Shown piece after piece: positions 160 to 16,200 of a stretch of 23,397 nucleotides of DNA (the first letter of the stretch is position 1; each line of letters opens with the position of its first letter). This stretch comes from a virus: IMG/VR virus record IMGVR_UViG_3300025120_000571, positions 1 through 23,397 of that record. One strand, given 5' to 3'. Below the pieces are notes generated by a model. That model saw only the letters and a list, made by a program, of their open reading frames with translations, was not told the DNA's origin and made no database searches. The position numbers were made by a program, and so were the translations under genes.

Positions 160-1314
160 CTATTCAAACAGTGTGTGTTTGGGGTCTGTCAGTGTGGCAT
201 CTATTCTCTGCTGTGCCGTGGTCACATAGTTCTTGTCCTGCTCTATGCCTGTGAACTTATTGCCCAACTCTTTGCACGCCATGCCTGTGCTACCTGATCC
301 ACAGAATGGATCCAACACGTGTGCTCCTTGTGGTGTTACCAATTGGACCAAATACCGCATCAGTGCAACAGGTTTGACCGTGGGATGATTGTTGCCTACG
401 TTAGGGATCTTGGCTCTAGTGATGGCCTGTTCGCTTCCATACATTTCCCCTGCTGACTGGTCTATTCTTTGATTACCAATATCAAATCCCCTGTGTCGCT
501 CCTTACGGCTGACTTTGGGACAGTAGAAGAACTTTTGATAACCTTCAACTTCACCCAACACATTACTTGGGTATCTACCTTTGTCATTACGGATCATTTG
601 CTTGTCGCTGTCGTTCCATTTGGCAGGTTCTGATTGTGAATACGTTGTTCTTTTTAATCCATCAGCACAATAGTCAAAAGGTTCTGATTCTATCCTTGTA
701 GCGTCTATGTTCAGTGCCCCCACACCGTGAGTCAACACATTGTCTATGGTGCTTCCTTTGAAAGGTTTACGAGCCATACATATGGGTTCGTGTGCTGGCT
801 TGAGTGCTGTCTTCCAACCACTCCATTGCTTTGCTTCTGGTGATGTTGGTATGGTTGCTCCCCTCACATTGTTCTGTTGCCAAGCGTCGCCATTGCCATC
901 GCCACCAACACGCGGATGATTGTGTTTGTATAATTCAGTCTTTTCAACACCCTGTCTTCTCTGTATGCTTTTGCCTAGGTCCTGTGCCTTGGGGAATCCT
1001 GAAGCATACAACCACATTATCTGATCCCTGATCTCAAATCCCACTGATTCTATGTTGGTAGCAAGATGATGGTATGTTCTTGCCGCTGAGAATGCCAATA
1101 GGTAGCCACCTGGCTTCAATACCCTAAAACATTCTGACCATATCTCCACTGCTCCTGTGTTTGAGTCCCATTCCTTGGCTAGGAATTCTATGCCATAGGG
1201 TGGATCTGTCACCACAGCGTCTATGCTGTTGTCTGCTAATTTTTTTAGTTCTTGTGCTGAATCGCCGTGTATAATCATATTTTGTTTGGGATGGATGTGC
1301 CGCAAAATGGCCAC
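160..1314 (-). CDS. N4/N6-type DNA methyltransferase
   Basis: Transfers a methyl group from S-adenosylmethionine to the exocyclic amino group of adenine or cytosine in DNA. With the GTG start, motif IV (DPPYG) lies at residues 37-41 and motif I (DPFCGSGSTG) at 335-344. That order, catalytic motif first and SAM-binding motif near the C terminus, is the beta class of the N4/N6 methylase family. The middle (about 100-300) is the likely target-recognition region and contains the family phrase GALNIDATRIE. No restriction enzyme is next to it, so it probably protects phage DNA or alters its regulation. Start choice is uncertain: the GTG at 1314 has no clear ribosome binding site, and an ATG at 1278 gives 372 residues beginning MIIHGDSAQEL, a typical beginning for the family. 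Target sequence unknown. Confidence 0.9.
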   Translation of the reverse strand: MAILRHIHPKQNMIIHGDSAQELKKLADNSIDAVVTDPPYGIEFLAKEWDSNTGAVEIWSECFRVLKPGGYLLAFSAARTYHHLATNIESVGFEIRDQIMWLYASGFPKAQDLGKSIQRRQGVEKTELYKHNHPRVGGDGNGDAWQQNNVRGATIPTSPEAKQWSGWKTALKPAHEPICMARKPFKGSTIDNVLTHGVGALNIDATRIESEPFDYCADGLKRTTYSQSEPAKWNDSDKQMIRNDKGRYPSNVLGEVEGYQKFFYCPKVSRKERHRGFDIGNQRIDQSAGEMYGSEQAITRAKIPNVGNNHPTVKPVALMRYLVQLVTPQGAHVLDPFCGSGSTGMACKELGNKFTGIEQDKNYVTTAQQRIDATLTDPKHTLFE

Positions 1315-2578: not shown

Positions 2579-4926
2579 TAGGATACCGTGTGTGCTGATG
2601 CATTGGCAAAGTTGGAACGTCTGTCCAATTCATTACGTGCCGCCACCCTCACGTTGTATACTTCACCTGTGCCCACAGGAGCAATAAAGAACGTGGTGTC
2701 ATTGGTTATGCCTGCTGTTAGATATGGAGTTGCTGAGGTTAATTTGTATTGCACAATGTATTCAGTAACAAATGGATCTGTGGATGCTGTCCAAGTGACT
2801 TTCATCTGTGATGCTGATGTGTATCCACCACCGCTGGCTTGTCCAGAACTGACCACTGTAACATTGGTAGGTGCTGTGACCTGTAATGGGTTGGGTAAAT
2901 TAATTGAGGGTTTGGCGGCCGCCGCCGCATGTCCATCCAACACATAATCATTTGAATTGTGTTCAGTTGCCACAAAGCCAAGGCTTCCTTCTGCTGATAG
3001 ATCCATGCTTTCTATACGGAACACACCGTCAAAGTTTAAATTTTTGTTGATCACACGCACTAGGTCACCCACACTCACGTTGGTTGCCGCAGTGGTGGTT
3101 GAAAATTGTATGCTCATTTTGTTTCTGCTGGCTTTCACCAGTGTCTCTGCCATGTTGAGTGCTCTTTCTCTGTGTGTGCAGTGTGGCAGTGCTATCTGTT
3201 TGTGCAAAGGTATGCTGTTGTCCTGTGTTAGGTATCCTGAATATGTGCTACTGCCAGTCGGAGGCCAAAACACATCATTAGGTTGGAAGTCAGCGTCTGG
3301 ATCAGTGTAGGTCACACGCAGTTGATTAATTTTTCTCTGTTTGCTTTCACCCTGTATTCTCAGTCCACCAATCAGTATGTCCTCATTGATCACCATGCTT
3401 ACTGGTGGTGGATTTGGTGCCGCATCAATGTCTGCCAAATTGCCACCATGGTGTATTTTAACAAAATACTTGCCTGCTTGATATGGCATGATGCCATTGA
3501 AACTGGATAATATGCTTTTGACATTGTTGAGTAGGCTGGAGCCACTGTCCAATACACCATCAAACTCACTGAACTTGCCAGAGGTGCTGGATGTGTAAGG
3601 CACAGTTTGACTGCACTGTTGGGCCGCTTCTTGTATGCTGGTGAAATCAAAATAATCATTGCTCAATCCCTTGCCATATCTTGGATTTCTAAGATAATCC
3701 AACAACACGTTGACTGGATTGGTTGAAAAAACTTCTGTTTCACTGGCGTATGCTGTGCTGTGTGCCAGTGTGCTGGTTGTAGGCAGTTCAACGGACCAAG
3801 CCACTGTGCCAACTGGTGTTGGTCCTTTAGATGATGGAAAAGGTCCCACTGTTGATGTTAATTGTATTTGATATGCACCAGCACTTGGTATTGCAATTTG
3901 TTCGTCTATGAATGCTGTTGCTGGTGTGGCGTCTTGTGTTGATACTGCATTGAATGGTCTTCCATCTGTGTTGGAGTTGAATATTGTAGAGCCATCAGAA
4001 ACCTTTGTCACCGCATATTGAGCAACCACCCTAACATTGTCTCCTGCTGTGTTGTCTCTGACACTGGCTGTGTTTGCCATTTTGATGTTAACCACTGCGT
4101 TGCTGGCTGTGGTAGTAAGAAACACATTGGCTGTGTAACTTTCACCATTTCCCACAGGTATCTTTGTTACGTTGGTTCCGCTGGCAAAATTAGCCACGTG
4201 TGCCACAGTGTTTGTGGTTCCGCTTGGTCCTGCGTTGTTGGACGCTGTAATTCCACCTTCAAATGCCTGTGTGTATCCTGATGTTACATCAAATACTTTT
4301 CTACCTTTCATCCTCACGTTGATTTTAGGTATGCCTGATCTGTAAGGATTGTTGTCTGCGTCTTCCTGTGATTCAATCTTCTTCCATTCAAATCTACAAG
4401 CCAAATAAGCAATACCTCTCAGTCTGTGATTGGAGCCCCAACCTGGTGCTTCATCCAATAAAGTTGACACAGTCTGATCGTCTCTGCCGTCAAAGAATTG
4501 TGTTTTTAATCTGTCTGAATAATCGCCTGAACTTGGTGTTGCTTGTGTGCCGTGTGCATAACTGCTCATTGGCACATCCACGTCGTCTATAAAAATTTTA
4601 TCTATGCTGTCTACCTGTCCTTCAGCAAGAGCAAGTGCCACATACAAATACTGATTGGTTGAACCATTAGTGGATACAAAAACTCTAAAGCCTCCCAGTC
4701 TTCTCTCGCCATACACAACTGGTATGTTGCCCACACCTGAATCTTTGTTTACAAGTGGTCCTAAAATTTGTTCGCTTACTTGTCCTCCAGTGCCATCTCC
4801 ACCAGGCACATCAGGCATCTTAAATGGTGACGCAACAATATCAACCGCGGCTTTGAATGTGTCTGTTACAAAATCAACAGCGTCATCAATGTATTCTTTA
4901 AATTTTTTAAATATTTTCCACCCCAT
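2578..4926 (-). CDS. Tail-tip central hub protein (gpJ/host-specificity type) with a C-terminal fibronectin III domain
   Basis: Closes the distal end of the tail and probably contacts the host surface. The first 35 residues form an amphipathic helix (WKIFKKFKEYIDDAVDFV). The phrase IPVVYGERRLGGFRVF near residues 68-83 is the conserved beginning of the tail-tip J family. Middle parts (about 210-400) are Thr/Ser/Asn-rich beta domains, probably inserted. Residues 685-782 (from APTNVTVVSSG to the end) read as a fibronectin type III domain, with VTW, YIVQYK and YNVRVAARN strands. At 782 residues it is shorter than lambda gpJ (about 1130) but in range for marine siphophages. It is coupled by TAATG to the genes on both sides. 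The ribosome binding site is AGGA before ATG 4926. Confidence 0.85.
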   Translation of the reverse strand: MGWKIFKKFKEYIDDAVDFVTDTFKAAVDIVASPFKMPDVPGGDGTGGQVSEQILGPLVNKDSGVGNIPVVYGERRLGGFRVFVSTNGSTNQYLYVALALAEGQVDSIDKIFIDDVDVPMSSYAHGTQATPSSGDYSDRLKTQFFDGRDDQTVSTLLDEAPGWGSNHRLRGIAYLACRFEWKKIESQEDADNNPYRSGIPKINVRMKGRKVFDVTSGYTQAFEGGITASNNAGPSGTTNTVAHVANFASGTNVTKIPVGNGESYTANVFLTTTASNAVVNIKMANTASVRDNTAGDNVRVVAQYAVTKVSDGSTIFNSNTDGRPFNAVSTQDATPATAFIDEQIAIPSAGAYQIQLTSTVGPFPSSKGPTPVGTVAWSVELPTTSTLAHSTAYASETEVFSTNPVNVLLDYLRNPRYGKGLSNDYFDFTSIQEAAQQCSQTVPYTSSTSGKFSEFDGVLDSGSSLLNNVKSILSSFNGIMPYQAGKYFVKIHHGGNLADIDAAPNPPPVSMVINEDILIGGLRIQGESKQRKINQLRVTYTDPDADFQPNDVFWPPTGSSTYSGYLTQDNSIPLHKQIALPHCTHRERALNMAETLVKASRNKMSIQFSTTTAATNVSVGDLVRVINKNLNFDGVFRIESMDLSAEGSLGFVATEHNSNDYVLDGHAAAAAKPSINLPNPLQVTAPTNVTVVSSGQASGGGYTSASQMKVTWTASTDPFVTEYIVQYKLTSATPYLTAGITNDTTFFIAPVGTGEVYNVRVAARNELDRRSNFANASAHTVS

Positions 4927-10963: not shown

Positions 10964-11464
10964 TTATTGGATATGTTCCAAGTGTGTTAATCTTAAATCT
11001 CTCTGCTTGCCATCATTACGCACAACAACAATTTCAATGTTTGGTTGTGCGTTCCAAATTTCAAGCAGTCGCGATTGTGAATTTGTATATTTCAATTTGG
11101 ATTTCCTTTTGTATTCATACACACTGTCGTTAGTGACACCCCAATCGCATCCAATGATGTATAATTTTTTATAACCCAAGTTTAAAGCACATCTCACAGC
11201 CATCATGCCTGAATTCTGTGGCTGACTGGACATTGAATACATCACCTGTTCAAATCCTGGTGATTGATTCCAACCATTCCTGGTCCAATATTTTACTTCT
11301 GGTTCTGTCTCTATGAATTGAATGGTGACTGGATCATACACGCACACATGGTCTACTTTTCTGTCTCTGCGGATATGATTGCATCCAAATTCTGTGTATT
11401 TTTTTTCAATGTCCAAATATGACTTTCTGCTAGGACCATTGAACCATATCACTGCTGTGTTCAT
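10964..11464 (-). CDS. Sialyltransferase/DUF115-like protein in the capsid region
   Basis: 166 residues. A G-P-S turn near the N terminus (FNGPSRKSY, 8-16), a middle strand VDHVCVYDP (37-45) and NSGMMAVRCALNLGYKK (84-100) followed by LYIIGCDWG (101-109) follow the layout of GT29/GT42-like sialyltransferases and DUF115 proteins: GPS loop, Asp after a strand, S-G-x-x-A helix, L-G-Y-K, then a strand to G-x-D. Such proteins bind CMP-sugar or similar nucleotides. It is shorter than typical enzymes and I cannot see the catalytic His motif clearly. It starts right behind the capsid terminator and has no ribosome binding site, so it may be an independently acquired accessory gene. Role might be virion or host-surface glycosylation. 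Confidence 0.55.
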   Translation of the reverse strand: MNTAVIWFNGPSRKSYLDIEKKYTEFGCNHIRRDRKVDHVCVYDPVTIQFIETEPEVKYWTRNGWNQSPGFEQVMYSMSSQPQNSGMMAVRCALNLGYKKLYIIGCDWGVTNDSVYEYKRKSKLKYTNSQSRLLEIWNAQPNIEIVVVRNDGKQRDLRLTHLEHIQ

Positions 11465-12462: not shown

Positions 12463-13185
12463 TTATAAACCTAGGTTAGGATATTTTTTTCTTCTAGCCT
12501 CAGCATATAACCGTTTCTGTTCTGGATCGCTTAAATCCAGTTTATTGATATCAACATCATTTAGAGAAGCGTCAGTGTTGGTGTTGGATGAACTACCGGC
12601 ACCAGCTGGACCAGCCTGGACGAAATGGGGATTAGATTTTAAAAACTCATCTACCAATCCATCTACAGACAAGGACTCACCCGTGTCAGAGTATCTAACT
12701 TGTCCAGTCTTACTGTCAATTACCTCAACCATTCCAAGTTCTGACATTTTAACCTGTTCTCTTACAAGTCTTACGACCTGTTCAGGGTTGATCGCTTTCT
12801 TGGTTGATGCCGCGTTAAGCAAGGCTCCATCCACTTTGATCTTTGTCAGTTCACTGGAGAGTTGACCAATTTTAGCATTAGACTTTTCAGCCTGTTGCTG
12901 TAAGATCTGTTCAAACTCACCTTTCCTTTTTTGCTCAGCCATTTGGGCCTGTTCTTCTTTAGCAATCAAGGTTTGATACTTCTCAACATCTACACCCTCA
13001 AATTTCTTTAACACTTTTGATTCTTCAGTTTTTCTTATCTTTGAAGCAATCGCATCAAGTTGTTCTTGTGTATAGGTTTTAGGTTCTGTCGATACCTCAT
13101 CCTCAGTTGGATTGTTTTTTATGACTTCTGGTTGAGCCTGAGTGGTCTCAACATTAATGTCCGTCAATGATGGTTCTTGTGTCAT
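12463..13185 (-). CDS. Capsid scaffold protein
   Basis: 240 residues, highly charged and mostly coiled coil (about 50-120, e.g. YQTLIAKEEQAQMAEQKRK), with an acidic Glu/Thr-rich N terminus and a low-complexity Gly/Ser/Asn linker (about 190-208). The layout and place directly upstream of the capsid gene define a scaffold that directs shell assembly and then leaves. The start is set at ATG 13185 because AAGGAG (13200-13195) is nine bases from it; the GTG at 13191 is only three bases from it. The gene begins inside the end of the preceding 118-residue gene. Confidence 0.85.
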   Translation of the reverse strand: MTQEPSLTDINVETTQAQPEVIKNNPTEDEVSTEPKTYTQEQLDAIASKIRKTEESKVLKKFEGVDVEKYQTLIAKEEQAQMAEQKRKGEFEQILQQQAEKSNAKIGQLSSELTKIKVDGALLNAASTKKAINPEQVVRLVREQVKMSELGMVEVIDSKTGQVRYSDTGESLSVDGLVDEFLKSNPHFVQAGPAGAGSSSNTNTDASLNDVDINKLDLSDPEQKRLYAEARRKKYPNLGL

Positions 13186-13510
13186 CGTCACTTTCTCCTT
13201 TTTTGTTTAGGTCTGATTTGACCGTGTTATAGTTATATTTACCGTGATTGCGTCCATCTTTGTAGACAAAGGGATTTACAATCTCTTTGCCTTCATTCTG
13301 TGATGGTGCATACAACGATAGTAGTTCAAGCCCAAGGGCGTGTGCCACAGACTTGATATTAACAAGAGCCTTCCTTGCCCTAATGGCAAATCTCATAGAA
13401 GGATTCTTCATTAATTTTTCTTGGTTGGAGAAATACTCCAAACATAATTTTTTAAACTGTTCGTGTCTTGCTGATTCGACTGGTTGTCTGTATAATCTTC
13501 TTCTAACCAT
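13154..13510 (-). CDS. Hypothetical basic helical protein (118 residues)
   Basis: Directly follows the 51-residue membrane peptide (TAAATG, no gap) and overlaps the scaffold start by about 30 bases. Arg/Lys-rich N terminus (VRRRLYRQPVESARHEQFKK) with two amphipathic helices (about 15-35 and 40-65, FAIRARKALVNIKSVAHALG), then a polar tail with KDGRNHGKYNYNT and an acidic DDD. The helix pattern could bind nucleic acid. No recognised family. The overlap with scaffold suggests coupled production, perhaps in amounts linked to head assembly. Confidence 0.7.
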   Translation of the reverse strand: MVRRRLYRQPVESARHEQFKKLCLEYFSNQEKLMKNPSMRFAIRARKALVNIKSVAHALGLELLSLYAPSQNEGKEIVNPFVYKDGRNHGKYNYNTVKSDLNKKGESDDDTRTIIDGH

Positions 13511-13666
13511 TTATTTTCTCTCATTGATCTTGTTGATCAGTTCAAATGCTACTTTGACTTTCTCTTCTAACACTTTGATACGATAGTGTGCCTGTGCCAA
13601 TGTCACTATCAACAGCACGAATGCTACAAAAATGGGCCACAGTGCTGTCAGTGTTTGTATGTCCAT
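13511..13666 (-). CDS. Small single-span membrane peptide with a coiled-coil tail (51 residues)
   Basis: Starts at the ATG that shares a base with the stop of the SpeD-like gene (TAATG, 13668-13664). A longer frame from 13723 lies inside that gene and is not needed. The peptide has a short N-terminal segment, one hydrophobic span (about 8-25, ALWPIFVAFVLLIVTLAQA) and an amphipathic helix with heptad-like leucines and valines (YRIKVLEEKVKVAFELINKI). It resembles small membrane proteins found in head or lysis modules. A holin or spanin role is possible but unproven; there is no endolysin nearby. Confidence 0.7.
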   Translation of the reverse strand: MDIQTLTALWPIFVAFVLLIVTLAQAHYRIKVLEEKVKVAFELINKINERK

Positions 13667-14109
13667 TAGTCGTATACCACCTCGTCTGTCCAGTTGGTGT
13701 TGTATTGTTTGTTGTCCCACCAACTTAATTCATTGTTGTCTAATGTTTTGAATCCATGCTCTCTGTCAATGTATTTGTAATCCACTTTCTCCAAATCAAA
13801 CTGTGCCAACCAATTGAATATGGTTTTTATTTTGAAATCTTTGCAACTGTAAACATCCAATTGAATAACTGATGGTTGTAACCAACTGTGAAATGTTATT
13901 GAACTGGTGTCTATAATTGCAACAGAACTGTATCCTTCATTACCATCAACATCACTCCATTTGGTGTGTGGTCCTGACAGTATGTTCATATCAATGTTTT
14001 TGATTAGGCTTTTCATTTCGTTGTCTAAACGTTCTCTGTCTTTGAATAAAGGTGGTGAGTTTACTTCAGCTCTCACTAACAGATGTTTATGCACTAGTCT
14101 TGGATTCAT
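13666..14109 (-). CDS. speD-like: S-adenosylmethionine decarboxylase-like protein (SpeD family, class 1B type)
   Basis: 147 residues. In known SpeD enzymes a Ser becomes the pyruvoyl cofactor after self-cleavage, and decarboxylated SAM feeds spermidine synthesis. Here the segment VAIIDTSSITFHSW followed by LDVYSCKDF aligns with the family's pyruvoyl-Ser, His and Cys region: S69, H74 and C89 have the same 5- and 15-residue spacing as Ser63, His68 and Cys83 of the Thermotoga enzyme. The N-terminal HKHLLV strand and helix also fit. Odd points: Thr68 replaces the usual Glu before the Ser, and the PE after the His-x-Trp is LQ, so substrate could differ. It lies in the head module, between portal and scaffold, with AAAGGAAA before ATG 14109. 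Confidence 0.85.
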   Translation of the reverse strand: MNPRLVHKHLLVRAEVNSPPLFKDRERLDNEMKSLIKNIDMNILSGPHTKWSDVDGNEGYSSVAIIDTSSITFHSWLQPSVIQLDVYSCKDFKIKTIFNWLAQFDLEKVDYKYIDREHGFKTLDNNELSWWDNKQYNTNWTDEVVYD

Positions 14110-14452
14110 TTGGTTTTCCTTTTCTAGCTTTATTTAATATTACTAAATCCTGCTGTATTAAAATTGGTGTTGGTGCTGAATGACCCTTGTATTGTGGATG
14201 TGAATACAACCACTCCTCTGTGGGTCTGTCCTCATTCAATCTGTAGTGTATGTTGCAAAGGACCCTGCCACTTGCGTTTGGATGTAGCCACATTCGTGCC
14301 ACATAATCCCCCAGTGGTGTAATCTTTGTTTCACCACGCCAACGTTGCACATCAATCTTTTGTTTTAGCCAGTATGCTTTGCTCCAAGGACACACGGATG
14401 TGATTGAAGCAAAGTATTCTGTCCAATTAACCTCTTTTTTTCTTACCGCCAC
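14087..14452 (-). CDS. Hypothetical protein (121 residues), GTG start
   Basis: Begins with GTG 14452 (AAAGG eight bases before) inside the end of the basic mini-protein frame and ends inside the start of the SpeD-like gene. The protein has a Trp-rich N-terminal half (EVNWTEYFASITSVCPWSK, then RWRGE) and a compact middle (ARMWLHPNASGRVLCNIHYR) with 7 Trp in total, 2 Cys and several His. Basic C terminus (NKARKGKPNESK). No family recognised. It could be a small nucleic-acid-binding or virion protein; position beside SpeD suggests the same functional unit. The next in-frame Met is residue 54, so the GTG is the only good start. Confidence 0.6.
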   Translation of the reverse strand: MAVRKKEVNWTEYFASITSVCPWSKAYWLKQKIDVQRWRGETKITPLGDYVARMWLHPNASGRVLCNIHYRLNEDRPTEEWLYSHPQYKGHSAPTPILIQQDLVILNKARKGKPNESKTSA

Positions 14453-14660
14453 GTTTGCCGCCTTTAGACGCCATAGGCTTCTTCTTTTTTTTAGCCATTA
14501 TGCTCTCCTTTATTGTTGCCCACCATCCAACCCAACCTTTGAGTAAAGATTTCACCTCACAAATACATTTTCTTTTCATTCGTCGTGACATCTTATCTAA
14601 GAGTTTTTCAATCTCGTAAATTCTAATCTTAAGGTTATTCTTGTGGTGTTTCTTGTTCAT
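14427..14660 (-). CDS. Very basic small protein; 77-residue frame, probably expressed from an internal start as 23 residues
   Basis: The frame from ATG 14660 overlaps the portal end by 26 bases and lacks a ribosome binding site. Inside it, ATG 14498 is preceded by AAAGGAG (14511-14505) at a good distance and gives a 23-residue peptide, MAKKKKKPMASKGGKRGG then KKKRG, with 12 of 23 residues Lys or Arg. I favour the short form, but cannot exclude the long one (contains MSRRMKRKCICEVKSLLKGW, also basic). A DNA-condensing or charge-neutralising role is inferred from composition and the place in the head module. An A7 run near the end (about 14433-14439) lies where the next gene's frame also runs. 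Confidence 0.5.
   Translation of the reverse strand: MNKKHHKNNLKIRIYEIEKLLDKMSRRMKRKCICEVKSLLKGWVGWWATIKESIMAKKKKKPMASKGGKRGGKKKRG
14496..14511 (-). promoter_or_regulatory. Ribosome binding site for the 23-residue basic peptide
   Basis: AAAGGAG (14511-14505) followed six bases later by ATG (14498-14496). It is the strongest ribosome binding site between portal and SpeD-like gene and decides the likely start of the basic peptide within the longer 77-residue frame. Confidence 0.6.
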
Positions 14661-16200
14661 TGCTGAAAAACTTTGCGATCTCTGGATGTAGTTCTTTAAT
14701 TTGTTCGTCAGTCATACCTTGTTCTATCATGGATCTCATATGTGCTACCATGTCATTTTGATCTGTCATGGGTGCGTGTGTCAATGTGTCCATTGGTTGT
14801 TGCTGATTCATTGCATCTAGTTCGTCTTCGTCTTTAGCAAGTAGTTCTTTGATTTTTTGATTTATTATTTCTCTGGTCATGGTGTTATCAGATTTTGTTA
14901 TAAGAGCCGCTGTTTCTGCCACTTTTTTAAGTATGTCCATGTCTAAGTTTTTATCTCTGATATGGAACGCCATTGGATATTTTACTGATCCTGTCCATGC
15001 TTGTCCTTGCCATCTAGAGAACAATCTCCAAATTTGTTCTTCAGCAAGTTCTAGGTTCTTTGCTTTCTCACAGAGCTTAGCATCTAAGAGTTGGAACTCC
15101 GCTTGCTGTGATACCCCGGACATCTGTCTAGTTTCAATTGCTCTGATGGCTCCCATGTGTGCCATTCTATCAATGCTTTTTATTGTTTGGTCTATAGTTT
15201 TTAATATGGCATCTAGGTTTGATCCATTTGGTTGCAACAAGAATGGACGAGTCTCTGCTGTGACTGTGTCACTCATTGTTATCACAGCACCTGCACCTGC
15301 TGTTGCTTCTGTTTCTCTGTCTTTTACAAGTGTTGGGTGATTGGTTAATCTAATAAGTTGTTCTGCTTCTGAATAAAGTGAGAACAAGAAGTTTTGATTG
15401 TCTGCTATGTCTCCTACGTCTGAAACACCTATGCCTCTGATTGGTGATCTAGCGGCATAACACCACACAGCTGGTATAACACCAATTGGATTGGGTTTCC
15501 TGTCTATCATTGTCATTGGTTTGTTGGACTTTGCATCAAAAGATTCTAAGTATATCTCATCTTTGGTCCAAGTTCTAACATGATATGAATCTGCTTCATT
15601 GTGTGTTCTGCTGTCTGTTTCTAAAAACTTAACGTATTGTAATTCGTAATGTCCTGATGGTAGTCTAGTCCAATGCCAATCTATCACATTCTCTGGAGTG
15701 TATAATGTTGCATATGGACGTATGCCTTGTTCTAATTCTTCTGCTCTTGTGCCTACTGCTGTTTCTGGTCTGTCTACCAAAACCACACAGTGACCATACA
15801 CTGAGCTCATTATGTTGACGTCTCTCATAAATGATTGCCAACTTCTGCCTTCCATGTCAGCATCTTCTAAGAAGTTTTCAACTTCAGCCATTCCTTTTAG
15901 ATTGCCTAGTTCTCTCTTTGGTTCATTTCTAAACAAGAAACTGTTGTAGATATGGATGATACTTTTTACATGATTGTCTAATGGTGTCTGTCTAAGTCTT
16001 GCTGTGAATTCGCCCTCTGTCTCATACACATATCTTGTTAGATATTTTCCTAATTTGTATTGCACACCACCTAGGTATGATCTCATTAGGTAGTTCCATC
16101 TAGGAATGTATGCTGAATATTCGCTGTGAACAGGAAGTCCTTCTGCGTGGAAGTTCTCGTCGGAAGGGTGTTGGTTTAGTAGATAATTTTGTTCAGCCAT
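14635..16200 (-). CDS. Portal protein (DUF4055-like)
   Basis: 521 residues directly after the large terminase. The portal is a dodecameric ring at one capsid vertex, through which DNA is packed and released. Portal-like features: an N-terminal helix set with YIPRWNYLMRSYLGGVQYK (about 31-49), a wing domain with VYGHCVVLVDRP (about 134-145) and GIRPYATLYTPENVIDW (about 156-172), the stem/clip region RETEATAGAGAVITM, the crown helix (LLDAKLCEKAKNLELAEEQIW, about 371-391) and a Gln/Met-rich acidic C terminus. The order and the wing phrases best match DUF4055-type portals. AGGAG lies before ATG 16200, three bases after the TerL stop. Confidence 0.85.
   Translation of the reverse strand: MAEQNYLLNQHPSDENFHAEGLPVHSEYSAYIPRWNYLMRSYLGGVQYKLGKYLTRYVYETEGEFTARLRQTPLDNHVKSIIHIYNSFLFRNEPKRELGNLKGMAEVENFLEDADMEGRSWQSFMRDVNIMSSVYGHCVVLVDRPETAVGTRAEELEQGIRPYATLYTPENVIDWHWTRLPSGHYELQYVKFLETDSRTHNEADSYHVRTWTKDEIYLESFDAKSNKPMTMIDRKPNPIGVIPAVWCYAARSPIRGIGVSDVGDIADNQNFLFSLYSEAEQLIRLTNHPTLVKDRETEATAGAGAVITMSDTVTAETRPFLLQPNGSNLDAILKTIDQTIKSIDRMAHMGAIRAIETRQMSGVSQQAEFQLLDAKLCEKAKNLELAEEQIWRLFSRWQGQAWTGSVKYPMAFHIRDKNLDMDILKKVAETAALITKSDNTMTREIINQKIKELLAKDEDELDAMNQQQPMDTLTHAPMTDQNDMVAHMRSMIEQGMTDEQIKELHPEIAKFFSNEQETPQE

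Follow-up and report, generated by a model that had tools for sequence, protein, structure and literature searches.

A SpeD-family gene between the portal and scaffold genes

The window analyzed here is the whole 23,397-nucleotide stretch of IMG/VR record IMGVR_UViG_3300025120_000571, which is probably a fragment. On its minus strand, a portal protein gene (14635–16200; PHROG 145, 8.4e-63) and a head scaffolding protein gene (12463–13191; PHROG 2303, 6.6e-10) form the upstream and downstream boundaries of a cargo slot. The slot holds a speD-like gene with an ATG start (13666–14109, minus strand), encoding a 147-residue pyruvoyl decarboxylase proenzyme and lying between portal and scaffold as the first-pass annotation had placed it. 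The other occupants, all on the same strand, are orf121 (14087–14452), which shares 23 bp with the start of speD and belongs to no Pfam or PHROG family; a small ORF directly downstream of speD (13511–13723), with one hydrophobic helix, a basic tail and a weak DUF5472 match below cut-off (E 0.01); and orf118 (13154–13510), a protein of unassigned function that relatives retain in the slot whether or not they carry speD. The sequence AAAGGAAAA stands immediately 5' of the speD ATG. Elsewhere in the window, a 384-residue ORF (160–1314, minus strand) carries a DPPYG motif that suggests a DNA methyltransferase.

The ORF at 13666–14109 is a genuine SpeD-family gene. In profile searches its product matches PF02675 (AdoMet_dc; E 8.4e-14; score 52.3 bits, cut-off 25) and PHROG 3125, 'S-adenosylmethionine decarboxylase' (E 1.6e-14), and comparison with ten relatives with unsaturated dS gives a dN/dS of 0.05–0.15, reflecting strong purifying selection. 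The AlphaFold model (pLDDT 85.4, pTM 0.80) has a stretch below 50 pLDDT only in its last 11 residues; its top structural match is Thermotoga maritima SpeD (Foldseek 2.4e-5), followed by the Aquifex and human AdoMet decarboxylases (AdoMetDCs). Alignment to T. maritima AdoMetDC 1tlu (Z 14.1, rmsd 2.1 Å over 110 residues), a comparison the first-pass annotation had proposed, returned a matching predicted fold, and the window protein is therefore modeled as a class 1b SpeD. Pfam, PHROG, fold and dN/dS jointly rule out a chance motif or a wrong reading frame, and the original assignment to the SpeD family stands: of the refuting conditions named at first pass, two were examined, a fold different from SpeD and loss of S69, H74 and C89 in homologues, and neither came true. 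The protein looks like a functional decarboxylase of this family.

Predicted processing site, phylogeny and cargo slot

Searches of IMG/VR recovered 30 related loci by protein query (40–91% identity) and 80 by profile, and relatives also turned up on 39 genome contigs of bacteria or archaea. Isolate relatives comprise Pelagibacter phages and one Microcystis phage, joined by one fosmid phage genome; megablast detected no near-identical isolate phage. The Microcystis phage MaAM05 (L040) carries two tandem speH genes followed by speE, possibly a SpeD paired with a SpeD-derived decarboxylase.

Alignment to solved SpeD structures (2iii, 1tlu and 1vr7 for the Ser) equates S69, H74 and C89 of the window (minus-strand codons 13903–13905, 13888–13890 and 13843–13845) with T. 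maritima S63, H68 and C83, S69 being the predicted pyruvoyl precursor. All three occur where they had been reported and are invariant among 40 aligned homologues, together with T68, W76, Q83, D85, V86 and Y87. The alignments exclude rows with stop codons, and one row, an extended HTVC109P frame, was disregarded as wrong. T68 (13906–13908, minus strand), the residue before the predicted self-cleavage Ser, takes the place of the Glu of ESH-type SpeD. Two further oddities noted at first pass are likewise present: S70 rather than His follows the pyruvoyl Ser, giving T-S-S, and L77 and Q78 replace PE after H-x-W, giving HSWLQ. The window protein lacks both the E-S-H site and an HTWPE motif with its conserved Pro, whose position is occupied by Leu, while the Glu position varies among Q, E, N, D and T in the TSS clade. 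The Pro is an imperfect marker, since the SpeD of phage phiYS40, an assayed AdoMetDC, also lacks it.

Across the alignment the processing site reads E-S-H in ten true-SpeD-like rows, T-S-H in 72 and T-S-S in 44 (window included). Because both Thr forms are this widespread and E-S-H is confined to true-SpeD-like rows, Thr marks the clade; T68 is indeed present as first described, but it is no peculiarity of the window, and a 'unique' Thr before the pyruvoyl Ser is rejected. Of the 72 TSH rows, 69 have a His-to-Cys spacing of 17; TSS rows show 17, 15 or 14. The 15 residues of the window had been taken as an exact class 1B signature; this variation among relatives removes that argument, and the spacing most likely arose by shortening rather than by retention of a class 1B feature.

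The tree places the window and the SpeD of HTVC201P within a 63-row T-S clade (99/99), outside which fall the true AdoMetDCs assayed from phages S-PM2 and phiYS40. Within it, the window belongs to a 15-row TSS clade (99/88); the sister group of the latter, L101/L117, is TSH, so that a single change from TSH to TSS is the parsimonious reading. Given a short alignment, 28 open inner forks and several long outgroup branches, conclusions are drawn only from the nodes just named; the inner order of the 63-row clade is weakly resolved.

Throughout the TSS clade and its TSH sisters, speD lies between portal and scaffold wherever the locus includes both. The window portal is closest to those of Phage DSL-LC06 and Pelagibacter phages HTVC111P, 202P, 112P and 026P (41–47% identity), and in DSL-LC06 and HTVC111P, whose gene order was read, other genes stand between portal and scaffold. 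Among portal relatives with both boundaries (n = 51), speD occupies the slot in 21 and other cargo in 30, including a Dam-like ORF, a methyltransferase-like ORF (both named by sequence inspection) or orf121 alone. Many relatives, and a second type of phage, have orf121 together with speD, but orf121 also occurs without it. L018 and L027 represent this other phage type, which has a Phage_capsid_2 head protein; in both, an orf121-like gene and speD lie between a capsid-assembly-like protein plus a 2OG-Fe(II) oxygenase on one side and the major capsid gene on the other. The link of speD with head modules is recurrent, yet the slot serves as a general site for cargo. Its position makes late expression of speD likely. 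Polyamine supply for packaging, as first proposed, is a conceivable role, but the head position says little about such a role because the slot is a recurrent cargo site in this phage lineage; with cargo so variable, position is weak evidence of function.

Just after the major capsid gene, the window also encodes a weakly sialyltransferase-like ORF (10964–11464, minus strand; PHROG 4603, E 2e-4). A matching ORF is found in the same place in several relatives, and L018 (6301–6813) and L027 (6091–6612) have similarly placed ones.

Substrate of the predicted decarboxylase

The SpeD of HTVC201P (AXH71538) is a pyruvoyl-dependent L-arginine decarboxylase (Km 0.87 mM, kcat/Km 290 M-1 s-1) for which activity on L-ornithine and L-lysine was undetected, and it gave no spermidine rescue of a speD mutant (Li et al., PMC9992855). 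Agmatine rose in E. coli with a close homologue, BAR31446, and SAR11 hosts were proposed to convert agmatine to putrescine (Li et al., PMC9992855). The window protein groups with this enzyme and scores 35.9 bits against the AdoMetDC equivalog TIGR03330, below the cut-off of 75.65. These data agree with the earlier suspicion of an altered substrate, and the window SpeD is probably not an AdoMet decarboxylase. A new substrate, as that suspicion went on to suggest, is unnecessary because the Thr-type clade includes an assayed arginine decarboxylase. By analogy with this nearest tested relative, which makes agmatine from arginine, the gene is most likely an ordinary phage helper, of a kind described only recently, rather than a new enzyme class.

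We therefore favor, at a probability of roughly 55%, a self-cleaving pyruvoyl arginine decarboxylase of the SpeDA type that would supply agmatine and putrescine late in infection. The class 1b proenzyme would cleave itself between T68 and S69, assisted by H74 and C89, to generate the pyruvoyl cofactor. The mature enzyme would then decarboxylate a small amino acid; most likely it would convert L-arginine to agmatine, as HTVC201P SpeD does. From agmatine, host enzymes, whose route we assume, would produce putrescine and larger polyamines, and the enzyme would act at the late stage of head-gene expression. The 20 related phage records, mostly fragments, yielded no spermidine synthase, arginase/agmatinase or agmatine deiminase. 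PMC10407285 looked for non-AdoMet enzymes by, among other criteria, a SpeD homologue in the absence of SpeE; two Pelagibacteraceae genomes have a TSH homologue and lack a SpeE match above cut-off.

A diverged but genuine AdoMet decarboxylase feeding host spermidine synthase would also keep the SpeD fold and catalytic triad, as the window protein does. Genomic context lends this reading some weight, as TSH relatives divergently adjoin a true speE in four gammaproteobacterial genomes, each with one above-cut-off SpeD. In L046 such a head-to-head pair of genes lies at 3199–3915 (minus strand) and 3989–4372 (plus strand), and the genomes of L047, L062 and L070 have the same pair, with no second SpeD above cut-off. 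These pairs suggest either an AdoMetDC within the arginine-decarboxylase clade or an unusual pathway, and AdoMet decarboxylation may thus persist in part of the clade. For the window itself, however, the Glu before and the His after the Ser are lost together with the Pro-Glu of HTWPE, the Glu position of which drifts in the TSS clade; the equivalog score is far under its cut-off, and the assayed clade member HTVC201P has no AdoMetDC activity (PMC9992855). PMC10407285 describes a Pro completely conserved in true AdoMetDCs, which we take to be the Pro of HTWPE. We consider a genuine AdoMetDC unlikely.

Rather less likely still is an ornithine decarboxylase (SpeDC) that would make putrescine directly, even though PMC9992855 identifies five homologues from uncultured phages as ornithine decarboxylases and PMC10407285 reports HTVC201P-type proteins as close to such enzymes. 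The latter paper gives Gln, Thr, Phe and Tyr as SpeDC diagnostics. As stand-ins for SpeDC references we used patescibacterial homologues with a Gln-Leu-Ile-Glu-Thr-Ser stretch, which resemble SpeDC and carry Q, T, F and Y at positions -5, -1, +6 and +14 of the Ser, respectively, fitting the four diagnostics in order; the diagnostic positions are placed on this basis. The window shares with them the Thr before the Ser, but under this placement it has Ala at -5, Ser at +6 and Gln at +14, and the patescibacterial set falls outside the 63-row clade. With only the Thr of these diagnostics present on that placement and the HTWPE Pro missing, the arginine enzyme fits the window best.

Finally, it is improbable that the protein self-processes poorly or not at all and serves, for example, a structural or regulatory role, as its altered processing-site neighbors (TSS for ESH), its variable C-terminal tail and its place among head genes could suggest, given the invariance of S69, H74 and C89, the low dN/dS, and the human AdoMetDC, which also has Ser-Ser at its cleavage site yet processes.

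A shared C-terminal peptide and comparison with known systems

The window SpeD ends in DEVVYD. In one group of sister phages SpeD instead ends in KDPFIYK, or in a few cases KDPFIYE or RDPFIYK (L013, L016, L019–L025, L027, L182–L190 and L234), and in other sisters the same ending closes a Cys-rich protein of 70–91 residues encoded just 3' of SpeD (L002–L011, L026 and L080). The tag was never found on both proteins in one locus (0/11 versus 8/14, related loci counted individually). Across IMG/VR, the DNA pattern for KDPFIYK followed by a stop gave at least 120 matches and a scrambled peptide 2, while non-terminal KDPFIYK, before a codon not starting with T, occurred 12 times; the codons of the peptide vary synonymously. 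Among the matches listed (L258–L374), most carriers are amphipathic microproteins of 27–55 residues, many encoded directly 3' of a primase-like gene. These tagged microproteins gave no usable match to isolate phages, Pfam or PHROGs, in searches where BLAST masks low complexity, and no description of the string was found in the literature searched. The ending (K/R)DPFIYK is common to non-homologous marine phage proteins: some SpeDs, the Cys-rich protein and many microproteins. It is doubtful, although conceivable, that the TSS subclade represents a late SpeD decarboxylase adapted to the head module, with a rewired site and loop, and that KDPFIYK docks the enzyme of its sisters at a phage or host partner; if so, the peptide would bring a polyamine-making enzyme to a specific partner.

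On the favored arginine-decarboxylase reading, helper genes that derive from SpeD and probably act on arginine, known from T7-like pelagiphages, would also occur in another marine phage lineage. Where marine phage genes of this clade are automatically annotated as 'AdoMet decarboxylase', the annotation probably names the wrong substrate, and the TSS subclade, altered around its self-cleavage Ser, should be useful for mapping the evolution of substrate choice and self-processing.

Among known systems, the T. maritima AdoMetDC (class 1b; 1tlu, 1tmi and 1vr7) shares its fold and the S63/H68/C83 equivalents with the window protein, but is only 16–20% identical to it, has ESH and HTWPE motifs, and is a true AdoMetDC. 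The SpeDC ornithine decarboxylases (PMC10407285) have in common with the window the Thr before the pyruvoyl Ser; under the positions assigned here, the other three diagnostics are missing from the window. The nearest isolate homologues, from Pelagibacter phages HTVC103P, 104P and 115P (48–50% identity), are TSH, unlike the window, and are encoded after a DNA polymerase and a single hypothetical gene. HTVC201P SpeD, also from a marine phage, shares with the window protein its fold family, the Thr-Ser site, the invariant QLDVY-x-C strand and the absence of the HTWPE Pro. The two are 34–36% identical and differ in that HTVC201P SpeD has TSH rather than TSS, a His-to-Cys spacing of 17 rather than 15, and no C-terminal extension, and its gene adjoins an exonuclease and a ribonucleotide reductase rather than a head module.
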